From a virus: a DNA stretch of 35,768 nt. Position numbers and translations under genes: made by a program. Location of the stretch: positions 1-35,768 of IMG/VR virus record IMGVR_UViG_3300023238_000023. One strand, given 5' to 3'. Of this stretch, positions 5,664-35,114 are shown in pieces (position 1 is the stretch's first letter; the number at the start of each line of letters is the position of its first letter). The notes under the pieces were generated by a model. It worked only from the letters and a program-made list of their open reading frames with translations. It ran no database searches and was not told the origin of the DNA.

Positions 5664-5763
5664 TGAGTCTCCTGGCGCTGGGTTGATGTTAACCGGCTGC
5701 GTTTTTTGGTCTTTTATGCTGCGATCTTTCATAATCTGTGGGGTTCTGGATTGTAGTGGAGAC

Positions 5764-5854
5764 TGGCGGAAGGAGGAGGAGTCGAACCCCACCCGATTAA
5801 ACGAGACCTGGGTTTCAAAGCCAGTCGCGGGCCTACCCCACTGCTTCACCTTCC
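5764..5854 (-). tRNA. tRNA-Ser (anticodon TGA), imperfect
   Basis: The minus strand reads GGAAGG...CCTTCC-G-CCA over 91 nt. The length, an encoded CCA, discriminator G73 and an extended variable arm all fit serine tRNA. The anticodon loop TTTGAAA gives TGA. The T loop is TTCGACT. Oddities: a T-T mismatch at position 7:66, a weak D stem, a C-C pair closing the anticodon loop and a T-C mismatch at the end of the T stem. It may be a degraded or phage-adapted tRNA. A selenocysteine tRNA was considered, but the anticodon is TGA, not TCA. Confidence 0.65.
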
Positions 5855-5859
5855 TAAAC

Positions 5860-5935
5860 TGGAGCACCCGGCAGGAATCGAACCCGCAACCTACGATATA
5901 CAAAAACGTCGCTCTACCATTTGAGCTACGAGTGC
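5860..5935 (-). tRNA. tRNA-Thr (anticodon TGT)
   Basis: 76 nt including encoded CCA. The acceptor stem GCACTCG pairs with CGGGTGC (one T-G pair). The D arm is GCTC...GAGC. The anticodon loop TTTGTAT gives TGT, reading ACA. The T arm is GCGGG-TTCGATT-CCTGC, with good pairing. There is one T-T mismatch in the anticodon stem. Discriminator is T. Five bases separate it from the Ser tRNA and six from the Met tRNA, so the three are probably one transcript. Confidence 0.85.
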
Positions 5936-5941
5936 ATAAAT

Positions 5942-6016
5942 TGGAAGCAGGGGACGGAATCGAACCGACGACTTCTGGTTTATGAGGCCAGTGATCTACC
6001 ACTGATCTACCCTGCA
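5942..6016 (-). tRNA. tRNA-Met (anticodon CAT), with initiator-like features
   Basis: 75 nt with encoded CCA. Canonical T8-A9 is kept if position 1 is the T at 6016, which makes 1:72 a T-T mismatch. D stem GATC/GATC gives an A11-T24 pair; D loop contains GG; anticodon loop CTCATAA gives CAT; T loop TTCGATT. The anticodon stem CTGGC/ACCAG lacks the three G-C pairs of true bacterial initiators. It is first in the tRNA cluster by transcription. Ile(CAT, lysidine-modified) is an alternative identity. Confidence 0.85.
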
Positions 6017-6063
6017 TCAAATAAGTTGACCTAAAATCGGGGTGTCCTAAGAGTCAACAAATA

Positions 6064-6327
6064 ATGGACGTTGATGAACTGAACGATCGGAAAGACAGAC
6101 GGTTGCGGGAAATCACGAAGCTGACGGAGTGCGATGCGTTTACGGGTTACTTCTCGGATCGGTTGCGCGAGCGGCAGAAGGAACTGGAGACGGCGGTGCT
6201 GGAGGACGATTCCCTGACTCCTGAGCAACGCGAAATTACGCGGCGCATGGCGACCGAATACCGGACCTACACGCGCAAGATTGTAAGCACTGACCGGGCA
6301 TTGGCGTTGCGGCCGGCTATGGGTTAG
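6064..6327 (+). CDS. Small charged helical protein, hypothetical
   Basis: 87 aa, rich in Arg, Glu and Asp, almost certainly all-helical, with a coiled-coil-like centre (RLRERQKELETAV). No good Shine-Dalgarno precedes the ATG. It is divergent from the tRNA cluster (48 bp gap) and its stop overlaps the stop of the minus-strand glycosyltransferase gene by four bases. It is the only + strand gene between the portal and the scaffold, so it may be a small head component displaced by the minus-strand block. No family recognised. Confidence 0.6.
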   Translation: MDVDELNDRKDRRLREITKLTECDAFTGYFSDRLRERQKELETAVLEDDSLTPEQREITRRMATEYRTYTRKIVSTDRALALRPAMG

Positions 6328-17847: not shown

Positions 17848-18204
17848 ATGAGATCACAAGGAGGATTAGGATATTCACCGGGGATTAGCTCAGGAGGTGC
17901 CCCTGCAGCTCATGCTTCGACGCATGCATCAGGTGGCAGCGACCCTATTGCTCCCGATGATTTCGGGGCCATGAGCGCTGCGCTTTCTGATTTAACTGGC
18001 GGAGAAGCTGGCTCCCTAGATGGACTGGCAACTGCTGGAGGCGCGATTGCTGAGAACTCTGTTCGGTTCGTGGTTCAAAACTTTGTGCTGTCGTCTTGGA
18101 AGCTAACGGATGACGATTCCGCAGAGAATGTCGCAGGCGGTATTATTCGTCCAGACGACTATGCAACGACTACGAATGAGTTTGTCTGGCTCCAGGTCAG
18201 CTAA
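17848..18204 (+). CDS. Tail fibre N-terminal-type protein with HASTHASGG motif
   Basis: 118 aa. Residues about 22-35 read 'HASTHASGGSDPIAPDDFGA'. The motif H-A-x-T-H-x-x-G-G-x-D-P-I is common in phage tail fibre or collar proteins at the junction between adaptor and shaft. AAAGGAG lies about ten bases ahead of the ATG. The C-terminal half is beta-rich (RFVVQNFVLSSWKL). It is followed by the long fibre-type gene. It is probably a short fibre subunit or the virion-bound part of a split fibre. Confidence 0.68.
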   Translation: MRSQGGLGYSPGISSGGAPAAHASTHASGGSDPIAPDDFGAMSAALSDLTGGEAGSLDGLATAGGAIAENSVRFVVQNFVLSSWKLTDDDSAENVAGGIIRPDDYATTTNEFVWLQVS

Positions 18205-18223
18205 CGGAAAGGGAAACACTATT

Positions 18224-19975
18224 ATGAAAATCATTACACAATATTTGGTGCTTTGGGCACTCTTAGCCGGACTGCTCTTCGGTCAAGTGGAGACGGTCAA
18301 GAAGAGTCCGGGCAATGATGAAATTACAGAGGATTTGGTAATCCCTGAAGGACGGGCTCTGACGGTCGATGGGACTCTGACGGTCAATGGCCTCGATGTT
18401 GGCAGTGTGTCGTCGCAATTCGCCGCCCGGCAAATGGCAGGCTACGGCATCAGCGACGGGGCGACGGCGAACCGTGGCGAGATCCTAACGCCGGGTGCGA
18501 TTGGGGACGTGGCTGGTTTACCAATGTCATTTCTCGCGGTCATAGACGTAGGCACATCTGACCCATCTTCAAATTCTGGCGTCATTTACATCGGAGACTC
18601 TACTTCTCCTAACTTCTCGACCGGGAGCGGGACCAGCAATGCCTCATACGCTTATATTACAACCTCGGGAGACTTGCAGATTAGAGTAAACGGGTCGTCG
18701 GGAAGTAATTATCGCAGAGTGATTTACAGGGATTTCCGCACGGCTTATTCGGGTCGCAATGGACTCCGATTGGCGATAGTTTTCCCTGAAGGGAATAGCA
18801 CCACGAGCCCCAGAATCGAGGTCGATGGGGTGGATGTTACAGGGAGTTTTGACCCCAGCACCGGTGGGGCAATTCCGAACTGGATTCCAACTGCTCTAGA
18901 AACGACCAATTACCTATGGGGGTATGAATGGTCAGGGGGCCGCAATCCCTACGTCCGCGCCATCATCGGCGCACTCAGCAGCGCCGAGTCCGAAACGTGG
19001 GGCACCACCGGCGAGCTGCCGACGTGGGCGACTAAGGCGGGTAGTGCGGTAAATCCTATCGCGAATAGCGGATTTGAAACGACTGGTTCCGAGGGGACTT
19101 CCGTTTTTGCCAATTGGTGGGGCGGCGCGAACCTCACAACATCAGCTGAAACTAGCGATCCTTACGTTGGCGCTAACTCTCTTAGGCTAACCGGAGGGGG
19201 TGCATTGTCCTCAACCCTGAACAACCATTTGAGGGCTGAGCCTTTCGGACTCGACAACTTCGGGGCTCCATGGACTCCCGGTCAATATGGCAGAGTTACT
19301 TTTGCGGCAAAACACGTTTCAGGGGGCAGTCTCTATTTCGGTAACGCTTACGTATCCCTGAAAACAGTCGCATCTGGAGACGCGAGCGGGTGGACTGAGT
19401 TTGAGTGGTCTGGGATTATTACTAGCAGCTCCGGCTATGCAGCCCCTGTTTTTGGAGCGGCATCAAGCGCGGTTTGGTTAATTGATAAAGTAGTGTTTTT
19501 GCAAGAGGGATTAATAGACGACCCATACTACCAGCCAGCCCTTGCTACCGGTGACCGTCTAGGCCGCATGTCCCGCCGCTTGCTGGGTATCACTCCGATG
19601 GTCGCGCTCGGAGTCTCTGAGGTCGTCATCAGTCACACGCTATCATGGGACGGCACCAATCACACCGCGCAATCCCTCACCGGCGGCAAAGCGTTTGAGG
19701 CGGGCTTTGTTCCGACCATGATTTCGCTCGTGCCCGACGCCGCCAGCTCCGGCGACGGTTGGACTATCGGCACCTCCGCCGATGCCGACCAATACAAGAC
19801 CGTGGCGAGCTACTCGACCGGGAAAACGATCTACACGCAGGCCGACTTCGCGAGCCGCGTTCCCGGCGGCACCGGCGCGACCAACCTCGACCTCCTCATC
19901 GATCCCGATACCGCCAATTACACCGGCAGCATCGAGGTCACCATCTACGGCAGCAACACCGCGGGATCCCCCTAA
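18224..19975 (+). CDS. Fibre-like protein with an N-terminal signal peptide
   Basis: The ATG at 18224 gives 583 aa; upstream in-frame starts overlap the previous gene and have no ribosome binding site. Residues 1-22 form a classic Sec signal (basic start, 'LVLWALLAGLLFG', small residue before QVE). Then a short strand repeat, 'GRALTVDGTLTVNGLDVG', as in fibre shafts. About residues 90-260 resemble a LamG/lectin-like fold (RIEVDGVDVTGSF). About 280-430 resemble a carbohydrate-binding module (NSGFETTGSEG...FANWWGG). The C-terminal part is distinct in base composition. It is probably a receptor- or polysaccharide-binding protein, but a signal peptide is unexpected for a virion component. Confidence 0.72.
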   Translation: MKIITQYLVLWALLAGLLFGQVETVKKSPGNDEITEDLVIPEGRALTVDGTLTVNGLDVGSVSSQFAARQMAGYGISDGATANRGEILTPGAIGDVAGLPMSFLAVIDVGTSDPSSNSGVIYIGDSTSPNFSTGSGTSNASYAYITTSGDLQIRVNGSSGSNYRRVIYRDFRTAYSGRNGLRLAIVFPEGNSTTSPRIEVDGVDVTGSFDPSTGGAIPNWIPTALETTNYLWGYEWSGGRNPYVRAIIGALSSAESETWGTTGELPTWATKAGSAVNPIANSGFETTGSEGTSVFANWWGGANLTTSAETSDPYVGANSLRLTGGGALSSTLNNHLRAEPFGLDNFGAPWTPGQYGRVTFAAKHVSGGSLYFGNAYVSLKTVASGDASGWTEFEWSGIITSSSGYAAPVFGAASSAVWLIDKVVFLQEGLIDDPYYQPALATGDRLGRMSRRLLGITPMVALGVSEVVISHTLSWDGTNHTAQSLTGGKAFEAGFVPTMISLVPDAASSGDGWTIGTSADADQYKTVASYSTGKTIYTQADFASRVPGGTGATNLDLLIDPDTANYTGSIEVTIYGSNTAGSP

Positions 19976-22162: not shown

Positions 22163-22512
22163 GAACGTTTTCAGCACTTCTTTTTGTCGTGGTCCTATCG
22201 GGCTGCGGGACTTCCCCGGTCATCCCTGATTTGGTGGCTCCTGCAGAGTTAGCCAGCTTTGATCCTGCCGATGGCGCCGAGCCTACCAGTGGCATCGTCT
22301 CCGTCGACGAGCAGGGGCTGACAATCACCACCAATGGTCGGGCACGCTACAACTCCTTGGTTGACGAATATGGGCACGAGTTTGTGCCTCGAATAAAAAA
22401 GGATTACGGCGTCTCGCCGTTGGAGGGGGGATTCTATTTTCTAAATAACGCCGGATTTGAAAAGTGGGGCATCATGGCCGAGTGGCGAAAAATGGGAAGG
22501 CAACCAAACTAA
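22159..22512 (+). CDS. Lipoprotein, lysis-cassette type
   Basis: 117 aa. A clear lipoprotein signal (MRTFSALLFVVVLSGCG) with lipobox L-S-G-C, Cys16 lipidated. The mature protein of about 100 residues has a proline-rich start, a beta-type middle and 'YGVSPLEGGFYFLNNAG' towards the end. The start overlaps the preceding stop (ATGA) and its own stop overlaps the next start (TAATG). It could be an outer spanin larger than usual or a superinfection-type lipoprotein. Not recognised. Confidence 0.6.
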   Translation: MRTFSALLFVVVLSGCGTSPVIPDLVAPAELASFDPADGAEPTSGIVSVDEQGLTITTNGRARYNSLVDEYGHEFVPRIKKDYGVSPLEGGFYFLNNAGFEKWGIMAEWRKMGRQPN

Positions 22513-22877
22513 TGACTCAACAACGCAAAGAAGAGCTAAAACAAAAAACGGTCAATGTGGTCGATTTATTCACGCGTTCTGCAGCGGTGATTGCGATGAT
22601 GCTTTCGTCGTGGATGCTATTTACGGTTAACTCTAACGAGAACGATATCGTCAAAAGTCGAGGGGAGTATATTTCGTTGAGTGCCGATGTTTTAGTGCTT
22701 GGTAAGTCGCTCGATGAAGTCAGTCGTCTGTATTATCCTATCGATGCCGCAAACAAGCACGAGGCGTGGGCGTTGCGATTGGCGGCGGATAGTCGCGACG
22801 ATCGCAGGGAGATTAAACAGCGGATGGACACGATCATCGATTTGTTGATGAACGGTCGGCGGCAGGTCTTGCCATAG
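22512..22877 (+). CDS. Single-span membrane protein with periplasmic helix
   Basis: 121 aa, starting at the ATG in TAATG that overlaps the upstream stop. A charged N-terminal part of about 20 residues precedes one membrane segment (AAVIAMMLSSWMLFTV, about residues 24-39). About 80 helical, charged residues follow, which would lie in the periplasm. That topology (N-in, coiled C-terminal domain) matches inner-membrane spanin subunits, and the preceding lipoprotein could be its partner. Holin is less likely with one span and a long outside domain. Assignment is inferred. Confidence 0.6.
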   Translation: MTQQRKEELKQKTVNVVDLFTRSAAVIAMMLSSWMLFTVNSNENDIVKSRGEYISLSADVLVLGKSLDEVSRLYYPIDAANKHEAWALRLAADSRDDRREIKQRMDTIIDLLMNGRRQVLP

Positions 22878-23019
22878 GGGATTTGGAAACGGCTGGAGAC
22901 ACCTCACCCTGTCGGGGTGGGTGGCAGGAAACGCCCTGTGGGTTTGTGGTATCCGTGTGGGTTGCCAGCGATCGAAGTCGCGCCGTAGCAATGCCCCCGG
23001 CATACGTCCAGTTCAGGGT

Positions 23020-23143
23020 TTTGAGCGCTCAGTCGGAGGCACAGGATTTACGCCTGCCGTCTGAATCACTCCGGTCCAGTCCGCTACGGTTGCGAGCCGT
23101 TTGACAAATCCGCCTGATAGGGACCTCCGACTGAGTGCTCAAA
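23020..23143. repeat. 20-bp inverted repeat with 84-bp spacer
   Basis: The arms 23020-23039 and 23124-23143 are complementary at all 20 positions, with one G-T if read as RNA. The right arm contains ACTGAGTGCTC. Chance occurrence of such a pair at this distance is very unlikely. Either it is the main stem of a structured RNA or it marks the ends of a 124-bp non-autonomous element. I see no clear target-site duplication outside the arms. Confidence 0.8.
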
Positions 23144-23415
23144 TGCTACGGTCCTCAGCTCTTGCGAGCACGTAGAATTAAGCCCGGATGGTATTAGTGT
23201 AATCAGTCCGGGCACCGTATTTACCTCAGTGGCTGTCGCTGCACGCTGCACAGGTTGCGGTTCTGGTTGTCCGCATAGTTGGCGGCATCGAGTAAAAACA
23301 GAAAACCCGAAGCGAAAACGGCGCCTCGGGCATCTGAATCTTAAGTCCACAAGAACTAAAAAAGTGTTAGCAGTCAGCACCGTTTTCGCTATGACAGCGC
23401 GATAGGAGCAGAAGA

Positions 23416-23441
23416 GTTGATCTAGAGTCAACGTTTTTTTT
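23416..23441 (+). terminator. Terminator-like hairpin plus T8, at the 3' end of the HTH gene
   Basis: GTTGA (23416-23420) pairs with TCAAC (23428-23432) around a seven-base loop, and eight T follow the next G. The stem is short, so strength is uncertain. It would stop rightward transcripts from the lysis cassette and the structured region before they run into the integrase operon. Its T run lies antisense to the last codons (KKR) of the convergent regulator gene. The same bases form a copy of the 19-bp dyad element. Confidence 0.5.
23417..23435 (+). promoter_or_regulatory. Dyad element TTGA-N7-TCAACGTT, copy 3
   Basis: It coincides with the terminator-like hairpin at the 3' end of the XRE gene, and is followed by further T. 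It keeps the same spacing and the same TCAACGTT half as the other two copies. Confidence 0.4.
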
Positions 23442-23883
23442 GGAGGAACGAGTCAACTCCCAGTAGCCACGCCTTGATTGCGTCGGGATTTGCGAGGGCT
23501 TGGGAGAGGATCTGGGCTTGTTTGGATGTGAGTCCTTTGGAGAGGGCTTCGAGGTCGGCATGAAGCTTTGCGCGTGCCTTGTCTGCGGTCGATCGAGCAG
23601 CGCTGAACCGCCGCCCCATGTCTTTGCGCGATCGACTGTCCTCCACTCGGTCCGATGCGTGTTCGGCGCTCCATATGGCGATCCCGTCGAGGTAGCGGCG
23701 GTCTCCCTCTGCAATGCCCATCCCTTTGGTTAGGATCTTGGCTACCATCTTGAGGCTTGGCGTAATAAGCCCCTTTTGCATTTTCGAGAGGGTGGACTTG
23801 CTGATCTCGGCTCGTCGGGCGATCTCGGCTGGTCGTAGGTCCACCTCGAGGCGGAGTTTGTCGAAGTATTGCGGAAATGTCAT
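23428..23883 (-). CDS. XRE-family HTH regulator, repressor-like
   Basis: 151 aa. Residues about 17-55 (RPAEIARRAEISKSTLSKMQ, then GLITPSLKMVAKIL) form a helix-turn-helix of the Cro/C1 (XRE) type with the recognition helix around 'SKSTLSKMQKG'. The rest is helical and Arg/Lys-rich, ending 'GVDSFLQKKR'; no RecA-cleavable LexA/CI peptidase domain is visible, so induction would need another route. The ATG overlaps the integrase stop (ATGA), so regulator and integrase share a transcript, with the integrase first. It is convergent with the lysis/structured-RNA region. It probably controls lysogeny. Confidence 0.78.
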   Translation of the reverse strand: MTFPQYFDKLRLEVDLRPAEIARRAEISKSTLSKMQKGLITPSLKMVAKILTKGMGIAEGDRRYLDGIAIWSAEHASDRVEDSRSRKDMGRRFSAARSTADKARAKLHADLEALSKGLTSKQAQILSQALANPDAIKAWLLGVDSFLQKKR

Positions 23884-25076
23884 GGCGTTGGTGGGGTAAT
23901 CTTTAGGAATTGTTGAGCTACAGTCGTCGGGACTAAAGCGGAGAGATATGAATTGTAGAGCCGGGTGGGGCTCTGGTGGCGCATTAGGGCTGCGACACGA
24001 TTGGCATTGCCGTCTATCGACATGAGGTAAGTGCAGAATGCTCTCCGGAAGCCGTTAAACGGCCATAGCGGGAGGTGCAGATCGCCCTCAAGCGAGGACG
24101 TGTGTTTAATGATGCGCCGCCAGTATCGTTTGCTGGGGGCGACGAATGGGCCGGTCTGCTCGGTCGTGAGATCCAGCCACCCCCATAAATTGGGGGGCAG
24201 GCCCATATCGGTGCTTAGGATCCAGTCGTCGTCGGTTTTACAGATTTCGGCCGGTATTCGGATCTGCTTTTCGTTGGTCTTGATCATGTCCCAGGTCATG
24301 CGGTCAGCTTCTGCTGTGCGGATGCCGGCGAAGGCTCGGACTGCGATGTTTGGGATGCATTGCGGCCGGTCGCTCATCACGAAGCGCAGGATTTCAGCGA
24401 TCTGGGTCGGCGTCGGTATTTGCTTCGGCTTGCGCTGGGGTTTGGGCAGATCGTCTTTTCGCAGATCAGCAATGGGGTTTTTACCGATCCAGCCGACCCG
24501 CTTGGCGTATCTGAAGAAGTTCCCCAGTGTCGTGCATCGGTTGTGCGCGGTTCTTGCTGCTTTCGGGGATAGAATGAATTTGAGCACTTCGGCGCGAAGG
24601 ATGGATGACATCATCCGGGATGGGCCGATGTTGCGTGCGAGTAGTCCGATCACGGAGTTGAGAGAGTCTACCGTGCGCCATTCTCGGTTGAGGCTACGCT
24701 TGATGCCGATGAAAAGTTGCCGAGCGTCATCGATGGTCACCTTGGAGTTGGAGTAATTGTCGAGGTAGTAGGTTGCGGCATCTGTGAGGGTTGCTCCGGT
24801 CGGCTGCAGGAGTCGGCGTGCTTGATCGAGGTCAGCGAGCACGTCTGGTTGCATGAGTGACTCGGCAGCGCCAGATCCGTAAGCGTTTAGGACTCGGCAG
24901 TGATTGCGCCATGCGGTGAGGGCTTTTTTCTCCGTCTCGAATCCTGGACGCTGGCGACGGCCGTTGATTGTGAGGGTGAGTTGCCACGGCTTTTTTCGTC
25001 CCTCGATGTGGGCGATGGGGATCGTTCCGCTTCGGGATGTCGGTGTCCGTTTTGTGGCAGTTTTGTGGGTGTTCAC
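23880..25076 (-). CDS. int: Tyrosine recombinase, phage integrase
   Basis: 398 aa from a GTG. The N-terminal arm (IAHIEGRKKPWQLTLTINGR) fits an arm-type DNA-binding beta sheet. A core-binding helical domain spans about residues 95-210. The catalytic domain shows R253 in 'AGIRTAEADRMTW', K280 in 'EICKTDDD', R344 in 'NGFRRAFCTY', H367 in 'LMRHQSPT' and Y377 in 'LYNSYL'. The usual His of the HxxR box is Asn341 here. The 'SP...Y' end is reminiscent of integrases in Verrucomicrobiota. No ribosome binding site is seen before the GTG. It is followed by the XRE regulator with a four-base overlap and is divergent from the early genes. Confidence 0.88.
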   Translation of the reverse strand: MNTHKTATKRTPTSRSGTIPIAHIEGRKKPWQLTLTINGRRQRPGFETEKKALTAWRNHCRVLNAYGSGAAESLMQPDVLADLDQARRLLQPTGATLTDAATYYLDNYSNSKVTIDDARQLFIGIKRSLNREWRTVDSLNSVIGLLARNIGPSRMMSSILRAEVLKFILSPKAARTAHNRCTTLGNFFRYAKRVGWIGKNPIADLRKDDLPKPQRKPKQIPTPTQIAEILRFVMSDRPQCIPNIAVRAFAGIRTAEADRMTWDMIKTNEKQIRIPAEICKTDDDWILSTDMGLPPNLWGWLDLTTEQTGPFVAPSKRYWRRIIKHTSSLEGDLHLPLWPFNGFRRAFCTYLMSIDGNANRVAALMRHQSPTRLYNSYLSALVPTTVAQQFLKITPPTP

Positions 25077-25127
25077 GACGGTTTAAATGGGTAAATATGG
25101 GGTATTCGGAAGATATACGAATCGCAA

Positions 25128-25145
25128 CTAAAATGATTATTTTAG
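25128..25145. promoter_or_regulatory. 18-bp inverted repeat, likely operator
   Basis: CTAAAAT-GATT-ATTTTAG is a perfect dyad with seven-base arms in the 114-bp space between the divergent integrase and early genes. This is where a lysogeny repressor would be expected to act. The XRE regulator at 23428-23883 and the RHH protein at 25191 are the obvious candidates to bind it. Binding is inferred. Confidence 0.6.
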
Positions 25146-25156
25146 AATACACGGGC

Positions 25157-25185
25157 TTGACTTGTGTAAGTATTTCCACAATTCT
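25157..25185 (+). promoter_or_regulatory. Possible early promoter with overlapping TTGTG/CACAA dyad
   Basis: TTGACT at 25157-25162 is a good -35 box; the hexamer 17 bases downstream (AATTCT) is a poor -10 box. TTGTG at 25162-25166 and CACAA at 25177-25181 form an inverted repeat with a ten-base spacer inside the same stretch and could be an operator. If this promoter is used, the transcript would begin very close to the GTG at 25191, favouring the ATG at 25212 as the start of the first early gene. Confidence 0.35.
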
Positions 25186-25190
25186 TCGGC

Positions 25191-25439
25191 GTGCCTAAAA
25201 ATTCGAGTCCGATGATTGCGGTTCCGATAAGGTTTCCGGTCGATTTAAAAAAAGAATTGGAGGCGGCGGCGTCCAAGTTTGGGCTCAGTTTTTCCGACAT
25301 CTCCCGTTTATCGATGGAGCGTGGGGTAAAGACCCTAGTTGCTCAGCTAGGAGCACAAGTGGCCACTAGGGGTATCCCCCTACCTGAACGCGTAATTGAA
25401 GACATCAAATTGCGTAAAATATTGGAAAAGAAGGGCTAA
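25191..25439 (+). CDS. Ribbon-helix-helix-like small DNA-binding protein
   Basis: 82 aa from GTG, or 75 aa from the ATG at 25212. The N-terminal strand 'MIAVPIRFPVDLKKELEAAA' followed by a helix, a turn and 'SDISRLSMERGVKTL' fits the RHH (Arc/MetJ) plan, in which the strand contacts DNA. It is the first early gene, divergent from the integrase, so it may regulate that promoter region. No RHH partner toxin follows; the next gene is a second small DNA-binding protein two bases on. Confidence 0.62.
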   Translation: MPKNSSPMIAVPIRFPVDLKKELEAAASKFGLSFSDISRLSMERGVKTLVAQLGAQVATRGIPLPERVIEDIKLRKILEKKG

Positions 25440-34055: not shown

Positions 34056-34958
34056 ATGCCCAATAATCCCACCCCTCCCGCTGCCGTGCAACCTAGGCTT
34101 GTTGGCTCAACGTCTGGTTCGGCCAATCTGGAAGACTTACTAGCGAGGTGCAAAAAGCTCCATTCGTTTATCGGATGGTATTGCATGTCATGCGATTCCG
34201 AGGTCGATGCGACATACCGAGAACGCTGCGCGTCATGTGGCGGCGTCCTACATGACGAGACAATCACCGGAAACCTAGTCGAAGCGGCGACTTATGAATT
34301 AAACGCACTGAAGTGTCCGTGGCATCCTATCGAAACTGCACCGAAGGACGATAGGATAGACATATGGCTGTCTTGCGGCACCCGATGGTGCGACTGTTAC
34401 TATGATGTGATTTGCGACCAATGGCGAACGAGTAGGCCATCCGGGAATCTCCTTTCGGTCAAAGCAAGGTTTGTATCTCACTGGATGCCCATACCGCAAT
34501 CACCGAAACCCGCGAATGATGCGCCTCGCCAGAAGCGACTGGTTCGGCTCGATCGCTCAAACTACCTCGACTTCGATCCGCCTCAACGCTGCGAGTGCGG
34601 GGGATCCCTCCAAGTCAAAGACTATCCAAACCGCCGGGATGAATCGAGGTATGAGGTATTCTGCCCGCAATGCTCACAATGTGACCCAAACGGCTACGGA
34701 TCGCAGCGTGAAGTAATCGACCAATTCCCCAGTATACTTTCTGAGAACTCTGGTTCTAAATTTTATGCCGATGATAGAGGCAACGTCGTGGACTACTACG
34801 ACGAAACTGAGCAAGTCGCGCGAATAGATAGAGAGGCTACCGTCAACGGGAAGGCCGATCAAAGCACCTTCGACAACTGGGCGGGAGGCCAAGCACTAGA
34901 GGCGTGGATGCGACTCAACGACTACGGGGAGGAACTCGATGAGGCGGCCCGAATTTGA
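34056..34958 (+). CDS. DUF551-like protein with zinc-ribbon cysteines
   Basis: 300 aa. Residues 43-61 contain two CxxC pairs (C43/C46, C58/C61), as in a zinc ribbon. About 89-150 follow the DUF551 plan: 'WHPIETAPKDDR', 'RWCDCYYD' and 'RFVSHWMPIPQSPKP'. A second cysteine group lies at about 179-209 (CECGG, CPQCSQC), again ribbon-like. The remainder is helical and acidic. DUF551 is common in phage accessory genes but its role is not known. Bases 34506-34544 recur almost unchanged at 35034-35072. Confidence 0.72.
   Translation: MPNNPTPPAAVQPRLVGSTSGSANLEDLLARCKKLHSFIGWYCMSCDSEVDATYRERCASCGGVLHDETITGNLVEAATYELNALKCPWHPIETAPKDDRIDIWLSCGTRWCDCYYDVICDQWRTSRPSGNLLSVKARFVSHWMPIPQSPKPANDAPRQKRLVRLDRSNYLDFDPPQRCECGGSLQVKDYPNRRDESRYEVFCPQCSQCDPNGYGSQREVIDQFPSILSENSGSKFYADDRGNVVDYYDETEQVARIDREATVNGKADQSTFDNWAGGQALEAWMRLNDYGEELDEAARI
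34506..34544 (+). repeat. 39-bp direct repeat, copy 1 (copy 2 at 35034-35072)
   Basis: The two copies differ at one position (AGAAGC here, AGCAGC in copy 2). Copy 1 lies inside the DUF551-like gene and encodes 'KPANDAPRQKRLV'; copy 2 lies in the space before the next gene. The identity shows a recent duplication or recombination. Confidence 0.9.
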
Positions 34959-35003: not shown

Positions 35004-35114
35004 TTGTTCGGCACTATTCCCACCCCACCTCAAAAACCCGCGAATGATGCGCCTCGCCAGCAGCGACTGGTTAGCCTCCGAATTTCAACCGTAACAGAAA
35101 ATATAATACAATGA
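35004..35114 (+). pseudogene. Remnant of a DUF551-type gene
   Basis: The frame reads 'GTIPTPPQKPANDAPRQQRL', matching the end of the DUF551 region of the 34056 gene (MPIPQSPKPANDAPRQKRL). It has no upstream domain: an in-frame TAG sits at 34989-34991 and no ATG exists. Its stop overlaps the ATG at 35111 as if it once formed a coupled gene pair. I read it as a 3' fragment left by recombination, now at most a short translated leader. Confidence 0.6.
35034..35072 (+). repeat. 39-bp direct repeat, copy 2
   Basis: 38 of 39 bases equal 34506-34544. It lies inside the gene remnant. Confidence 0.9.

Follow-up and report, generated by a model that had tools for sequence, protein, structure and literature searches.

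A nested hairpin in a non-coding insert, apparently private to one phage lineage, between convergent late and integrase operons

Among described elements, those closest to the one considered here are 3′ UTR hairpins, terminators and processing stems such as lambda sib/tI, in which a long stable hairpin follows an operon in non-coding DNA, between convergent genes and near int. Long stems can be cleaved by RNase III, and in lambda the sib stem is a retroregulator. The stretch analysed here has the same features, but its element is predicted from sequence and is absent from seven relatives with the same junction. The attachment site (attP) beside a tyrosine integrase gene offers a second comparison, since the stretch is likewise non-coding, near int and furnished with inverted repeats. 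A third is provided by the phage RNAs GOLLD and ROOL. According to a published account, GOLLD expression rises during lysis, many GOLLD RNAs exceed 800 nt, and GOLLD and ROOL often lie near tRNA islands (PMC12286853). Our stretch resembles them in being non-coding, folded and located in a phage genome. Unlike them, it has no Rfam match and no homologues in the collections searched, its significant fold spans ~170 nt against the >800 nt given for many GOLLD RNAs, and the tRNAs of the phage (tRNA-Thr and tRNA-Met, 5860-6016) are ~17 kb away.

The feature turned out to be real but modest, and smaller than first described: a single nested hairpin that is significant, set in a non-coding insert that the relatives lack. 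The window, by which we mean the whole stretch of DNA analysed, is virus record IMGVR_UViG_3300023238_000023 (35,768 nt). Its genes include those for an SU10-type portal, a major head protein, a tyrosine integrase, an HTH regulator, RecT and an exonuclease. Near-identical sequence is present in two IMG/VR contigs of 46.5 and 52.7 kb, which differ from the window by 3 and 36 mismatches over the compared parts and by none within 22878-23427; all copies of this stretch that we found are identical and come from the same phage. Because all 36 differences are confined to 18570-18993, the stretch offers no variation in which covariation could be sought. The best integrase match among genome contigs belongs to an Opitutae MAG (30%), and the best among phages to two Akkermansia phages (23-25%); judged by these matches, the host is likely to be of Verrucomicrobiota type. 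Portal relatives in viral contigs have 33-52% identity, and 10 of the 384 genomes of the MAG's class have a match to the portal, in three cases at 45-47%.

The stretch itself covers 22878-23427 (550 nt, no strand assigned), from the stop of the last late gene to the stop of the HTH gene. Upstream, the last late gene (22464-22877, + strand) encodes a small protein with a membrane-like segment recognized by eye and no Pfam or PHROG match. On the other side, the HTH regulator gene (23428-23883, - strand; Pfam HTH_3), whose family recurs in relatives, overlaps the tyrosine integrase gene (23880-25076, - strand) by 4 nt. The layout is convergent, a rightward late operon facing a leftward int-HTH operon across the stretch. 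An earlier note on this DNA placed the region after a lysis cassette, which is plausible in view of small membrane and lipobox proteins, but no lysis family was matched in Pfam or PHROG.

The same note saw no credible reading frame in the region, and the codon scores agree: the three ORFs in the stretch score -0.076, -0.106 and -0.137 per codon, much like spurious ORFs (n=79; mean -0.115, sd 0.094). The codon score is above zero in 25 of the 27 listed genes, but as it is not in the other two, and is only 0.009 for the integrase, the separation of coding from spurious frames is imperfect. The stretch looks non-coding. A coding function was rejected on the spurious-like scores, together with best Pfam matches (E 0.0057 and 0.3) below the cut-offs and no PHROG match. 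A decayed late gene was likewise rejected, 87 late-end frames from nine relatives giving a best E of 0.029 against the stretch.

Folding of the whole 564-base region is somewhat better than that of shuffled sequence on either strand (z -2.87 on + and -2.73 on -, with 1/100 shuffles equally good on each). The signal resides in a structured core at 22983-23151 (+ strand; MFE -74.7 kcal/mol), consisting of an 8-bp outer stem, a small side hairpin, a 20-bp stem and a branched tip. This core of ~170 nt has z -5.22 on + and -3.38 on -, and none of 480 shuffles per strand folded equally well. On the + strand the parts flanking it are near background (z -1.15 for the 5′ part, -1.65 for the 3′ part); the dense structure described over ~560 bp therefore shrinks to the core under this check. 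Sliding 180-nt windows on + (n=14) point to the same place: 22980-23159 is lowest at z -5.05, with -1.79 for the same core window on -. The second-lowest window on + (22800-22979, z -2.99) lies mostly within the last late gene. Among control 180-nt windows (59 per strand), the minima are z -4.2 on + and -4.8 on -. A G+C-corrected scan made without shuffles ranks the core windows 19th per strand among the 200-nt windows of the whole sequence, so the core folds strongly given its base order, yet its stability is not unique in the genome. A switch between two folds, suggested by the potential pairing of 22983-22989 with 23083-23089, could be ruled out by its energy cost: the forced alternative reaches -57.1 kcal/mol against -77.5, about 20 kcal/mol worse.

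The repeats underlying the fold were also compared with shuffles. The 20-nt inverted repeat (left arm 23020-23039, right arm 23124-23143, + strand) is complementary at 19/20 positions, the odd pair being G.U on + and C.A on -. It tops the list of eight inverted repeats of at least 13 nt within 250 nt in the whole window, and with 19 matches and one mismatch it beats 100/100 dinucleotide shuffles, the best of which reached 12. The nested 8-bp arms are present at 22983-22990 and 23144-23151. A second long inverted repeat (23311-23390, no strand) has 14-nt arms at 23311-23324 and 23377-23390 (93%), and the 11-bp exact repeat at 23311/23380 is longer than the longest exact repeat in 100 dinucleotide shuffles (10). 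Exact repeats of at least 7 nt number seven in the region (4.2 in shuffles, sd 2.0) and those of at least 8 nt four (shuffle mean 1.1), both counts including the two long repeats. The inverted repeats described earlier are present, and the 20-nt and 11/14-nt ones exceed 100 shuffles, but the small ones are mostly at chance level. What is left of the many-hairpin picture is a nested hairpin, a second long repeat and these small repeats. The region does contain two copies each of GCTACGGT and TTGCGAGC, as had been reported.

The HTH gene served as the anchor for comparing this junction across relatives. An HMM of its family returned eleven rows at E <= 1e-3, three of them sequences used to build the model (G188 and L243 among these); ten rows entered the comparison and G432 (E 3e-5) was left out. 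In seven relatives the HTH gene faces the late-gene end, and in 7/7 the two genes overlap or their stops are at most 15 nt apart, compared with a gap of 550 nt in the window. With late-gene ends chosen by eye from the ORF listing, the gaps are -9 nt in G188, 15 in L243, -4 in G403, -14 in G400, 2 in G407, 7 in G405 and -92 in G397, this last assuming a circularly permuted record and hence an uncertain overlap. G422 (-29) and G424 (-17) are excluded from the seven because their HTH gene has another location, near the portal. L243 also shares the int-HTH order, its integrase being 27% identical and its HTH protein 39% over 62 residues. Since the spacer is absent in 7/7 relatives, the stretch appears to be private to its lineage rather than a conserved RNA of the phage family. 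The simplest reading of the comparison would be an insertion or expansion private to the lineage; loss in all seven relatives would be less simple. Measuring the gap from a conserved convergent gene is a cheap way to tell conserved phage RNAs from private insertions.

Searches for homologues yielded only the phage itself. In Rfam, a scan of the window at gathering scores detected two tRNAs only, the region searched to E 10 gave two chance-level matches, and the core to E 10 gave none. No tRNA or tmRNA remnant was detected in the stretch. DNA searches found no homologue among phages and plasmids, and the only viral contigs with the exact 20-nt arm were the two from the same phage. Among 50 portal-relative records (50 of 67 loci; the other 17 are the window's own phage, in four copies, and 13 contigs that are short or truncated), 7/50 gave matches at E <= 0.5, the best at 0.009, which is chance level. 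Twenty of the 50 (G435 over its first 20 kb only) and G188 were also read. Matches to genomes at E <= 0.01 (3/384 of the class and 9/387 of the phylum, overlapping samples) were again at about chance level, and the eight inspected cover short pieces of unrelated genes or of the DNA next to them. For the core, a covariance model (R1) was built on two identical rows and so carries no covariation. In 80 sources (1.37 Mb) R1 found its own sequence on both strands (21.5 bits on the opposite one) and, besides, a single match at E 4.9; with filters off it gave 47 weak matches in L243 (best E 0.036), and in genomes 4/141 at E <= 1 (best 0.033).

These results bear on the possibility that the stretch is neutral or near-neutral filler, that is, inserted or expanded DNA, possibly left behind by a mobile element, in which the inverted repeats currently serve no function. 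Such an origin, which we consider unlikely but worth keeping in view, fits its confinement to one lineage, the absence of a homologue, a trinucleotide make-up that is ordinary for the genome and the chance level of most small repeats. It is at odds with the core and the 20-nt repeat, both well beyond shuffles. A known mobile element in particular is unsupported, as there is no second copy in the window, no target duplication by eye and no copy in other viral contigs. An integron attC or transposon remnant was discarded on the same observations; the attC core motif, for which the stretch was inspected by eye, was not seen. If the stretch is filler, it would warn that a spacer with several hairpins may owe most of them to chance once shuffled controls are applied.

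We next consider signals for transcription. The region was said to end in a hairpin with eight T; both are there, but the hairpin (23416-23441 including the T run, + strand) is weak at -5.2 kcal/mol, and the T8 (23434-23441) is part of the HTH ORF (23428-23883, - strand). Toward the int-HTH operon there is a terminator-like hairpin with a T-rich tail at 23305-23331 (- strand; 10 pairs, 7 of them G-C, -16.4 kcal/mol). By count, this single terminator-like site is not significant (0.8 expected in shuffles). No strong intrinsic terminator was found on the + strand of the region, and a scan of 22700-23600 for sigma-70-like promoters, the only type covered, found 0 where shuffles give 0.5.

The promoter scan weighs on the idea that the lineage acquired a discrete phage gene for a trans-acting ncRNA, with the core at 22983-23151 as its folded body. 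Such an accessory gene of a single lineage, sitting at a junction that is gapless in relatives, might be made together with the late genes and target the host or the int-HTH switch in trans. The stretch indeed looks non-coding, its fold is strand-biased, and it was apparently gained at a compact junction. Yet the absence of a promoter-like site in 22700-23600, of an Rfam match and of a homologue makes this improbable in our view. Should the core nevertheless prove to be a functional RNA, the locus would be a clean case of non-coding accessory gain, 550 nt against a spacer-less junction in relatives.

Our preferred reading, adopted tentatively and with somewhat less than even confidence, is that the stretch serves the late transcript, opposite the int-HTH operon, as a structured, cis-acting 3′ UTR and as an insulator. 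According to this model, a non-coding insertion in this lineage would have entered the convergent late/int-HTH junction, and transcription of the late operon would produce the + strand RNA of the stretch as its 3′ UTR. The core would fold into the nested 8-bp and 20-bp hairpin with a branched tip and, most likely acting in cis, would block 3′-to-5′ decay of the late mRNA and/or provide a double-strand-specific cleavage site. The stretch would also separate the two head-on operons, with the terminator-like hairpin facing the leftward operon and the weak hairpin and T8 facing the rightward one. We infer that the stretch is transcribed and contributes to protection or processing and to termination.

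Several observations favour this reading. The stretch begins right after the last late gene ends, and that gene shares its strand with the better fold; the core is more stable on + than on - (z -5.22 vs -3.38), and the odd pair of the stem can form G.U only on +. The absence of a coding signal, the terminator-like hairpin toward int-HTH and the gapless junction in 7/7 relatives are also in line with it. Against it stand the lack of a sigma-70-like promoter and of a strong + terminator, the shuffle-level count of terminator-like sites and the unexceptional G+C-corrected stability. Moreover, strongly folded spacer windows occur in relatives too (5/444 at z <= -4 in a rough scan with 16 shuffles per window that omitted G435); the gene caller used there accepts a spurious ORF, so the stretch itself is absent from the scanned spacers. 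As the seven relatives manage without a spacer at this junction, an insulator or 3′ stem would not be generally needed. The region had been interpreted as a new phage structured RNA or a complex 3′ UTR. Because position and strand asymmetry fit a + strand 3′ UTR with one folded core, the latter is reasonable. A GOLLD/ROOL-type RNA is not supported, given the lack of an Rfam match, of a diverged homologue in the searched collections and of the spacer in 7/7 relatives.

The strand comparison also speaks to a lambda sib-type retroregulator, in which transcripts running leftward from the int-HTH operon past the terminator-like hairpin would form the stem on the - strand, to be cut and followed by decay of int mRNA. 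The leftward order of int, HTH, terminator-like hairpin and long stem would suit such a device, and the core on - is still beyond all 480 shuffles (z -3.38). However, + gives the better fold, the 20-nt stem has its mismatch on -, and the read-through is hypothetical; we regard this mechanism as very improbable.

Finally, the proximity to int raised the question of attP or, more generally, of a DNA-level element such as a protein-binding site. Proximity to the integrase gene and better-than-shuffled folding on both strands are compatible with this, and in the related prophage G188 a dnaG-like gene (named by eye) meets the phage on the HTH side of the late end. The integrase relatives argue otherwise. 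In 30 integrase loci among the matches listed (203 of 384 genomes had matches; flanks of ~1.5 kb, some ended by contig ends), a tRNA or tmRNA gene was near int in 15, and in 15/15 it lay 5′ of int, away from the stretch. By this rule attP would be expected at ~25077-25190 here. The stretch has no convincing core shared with the 384 class or 387 phylum genomes, and a DNA-level site of this kind seems to us distinctly improbable. A search with the int 5′ side (25060-25215) against 188 genomes gave 5/188 matches at E <= 0.1, none convincing either. In record L037 (974-1346), a tmRNA gene is closely followed by a relative of the window integrase (33%), whose integration target may therefore be ssrA.

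Some further observations concern other parts of the window and its relatives. The 36 differences from IMGVR_UViG_3300022866_000011 all fall in a 424-nt late-gene patch (18570-18993, + strand) inside the ORF 18110-19975, and 18/36 alter residues. The gene resembles a tail-fibre gene, and the pattern looks like an exchange of alleles. A diversity-generating retroelement was rejected as its source, the changes showing no adenine bias and the records no template repeat. Self-comparison of the window revealed one sizeable direct repeat, of 45 bp at 93% identity (34506-34550 and 35034-35078). Among relatives, G403 (record L183-L185, late genes set +) has a 365-bp spacer between called ORFs at 5726-6090; it contains repeats of the type ATGAGCCC and, with 16 shuffles only, scored z -6.9. 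In G405 (L196-L199) and G407 (L200-L203), crude ORF calling leaves spacers of ~0.9-1.1 kb, for example 51833-52928 and 61183-62103 in G405; L196-L202 gave no Rfam match. Lastly, beside tRNA-Thr and tRNA-Met there is a third tRNA-like stretch at 5768-5854 (- strand), which scores 27.4 bits against Rfam tRNA-Sec (E 0.001; gathering score 47). It has no ARAGORN call; its anticodon reads by eye as UGA, and it is possibly an unusual tRNA-Sec-like gene or a tRNA-Ser.
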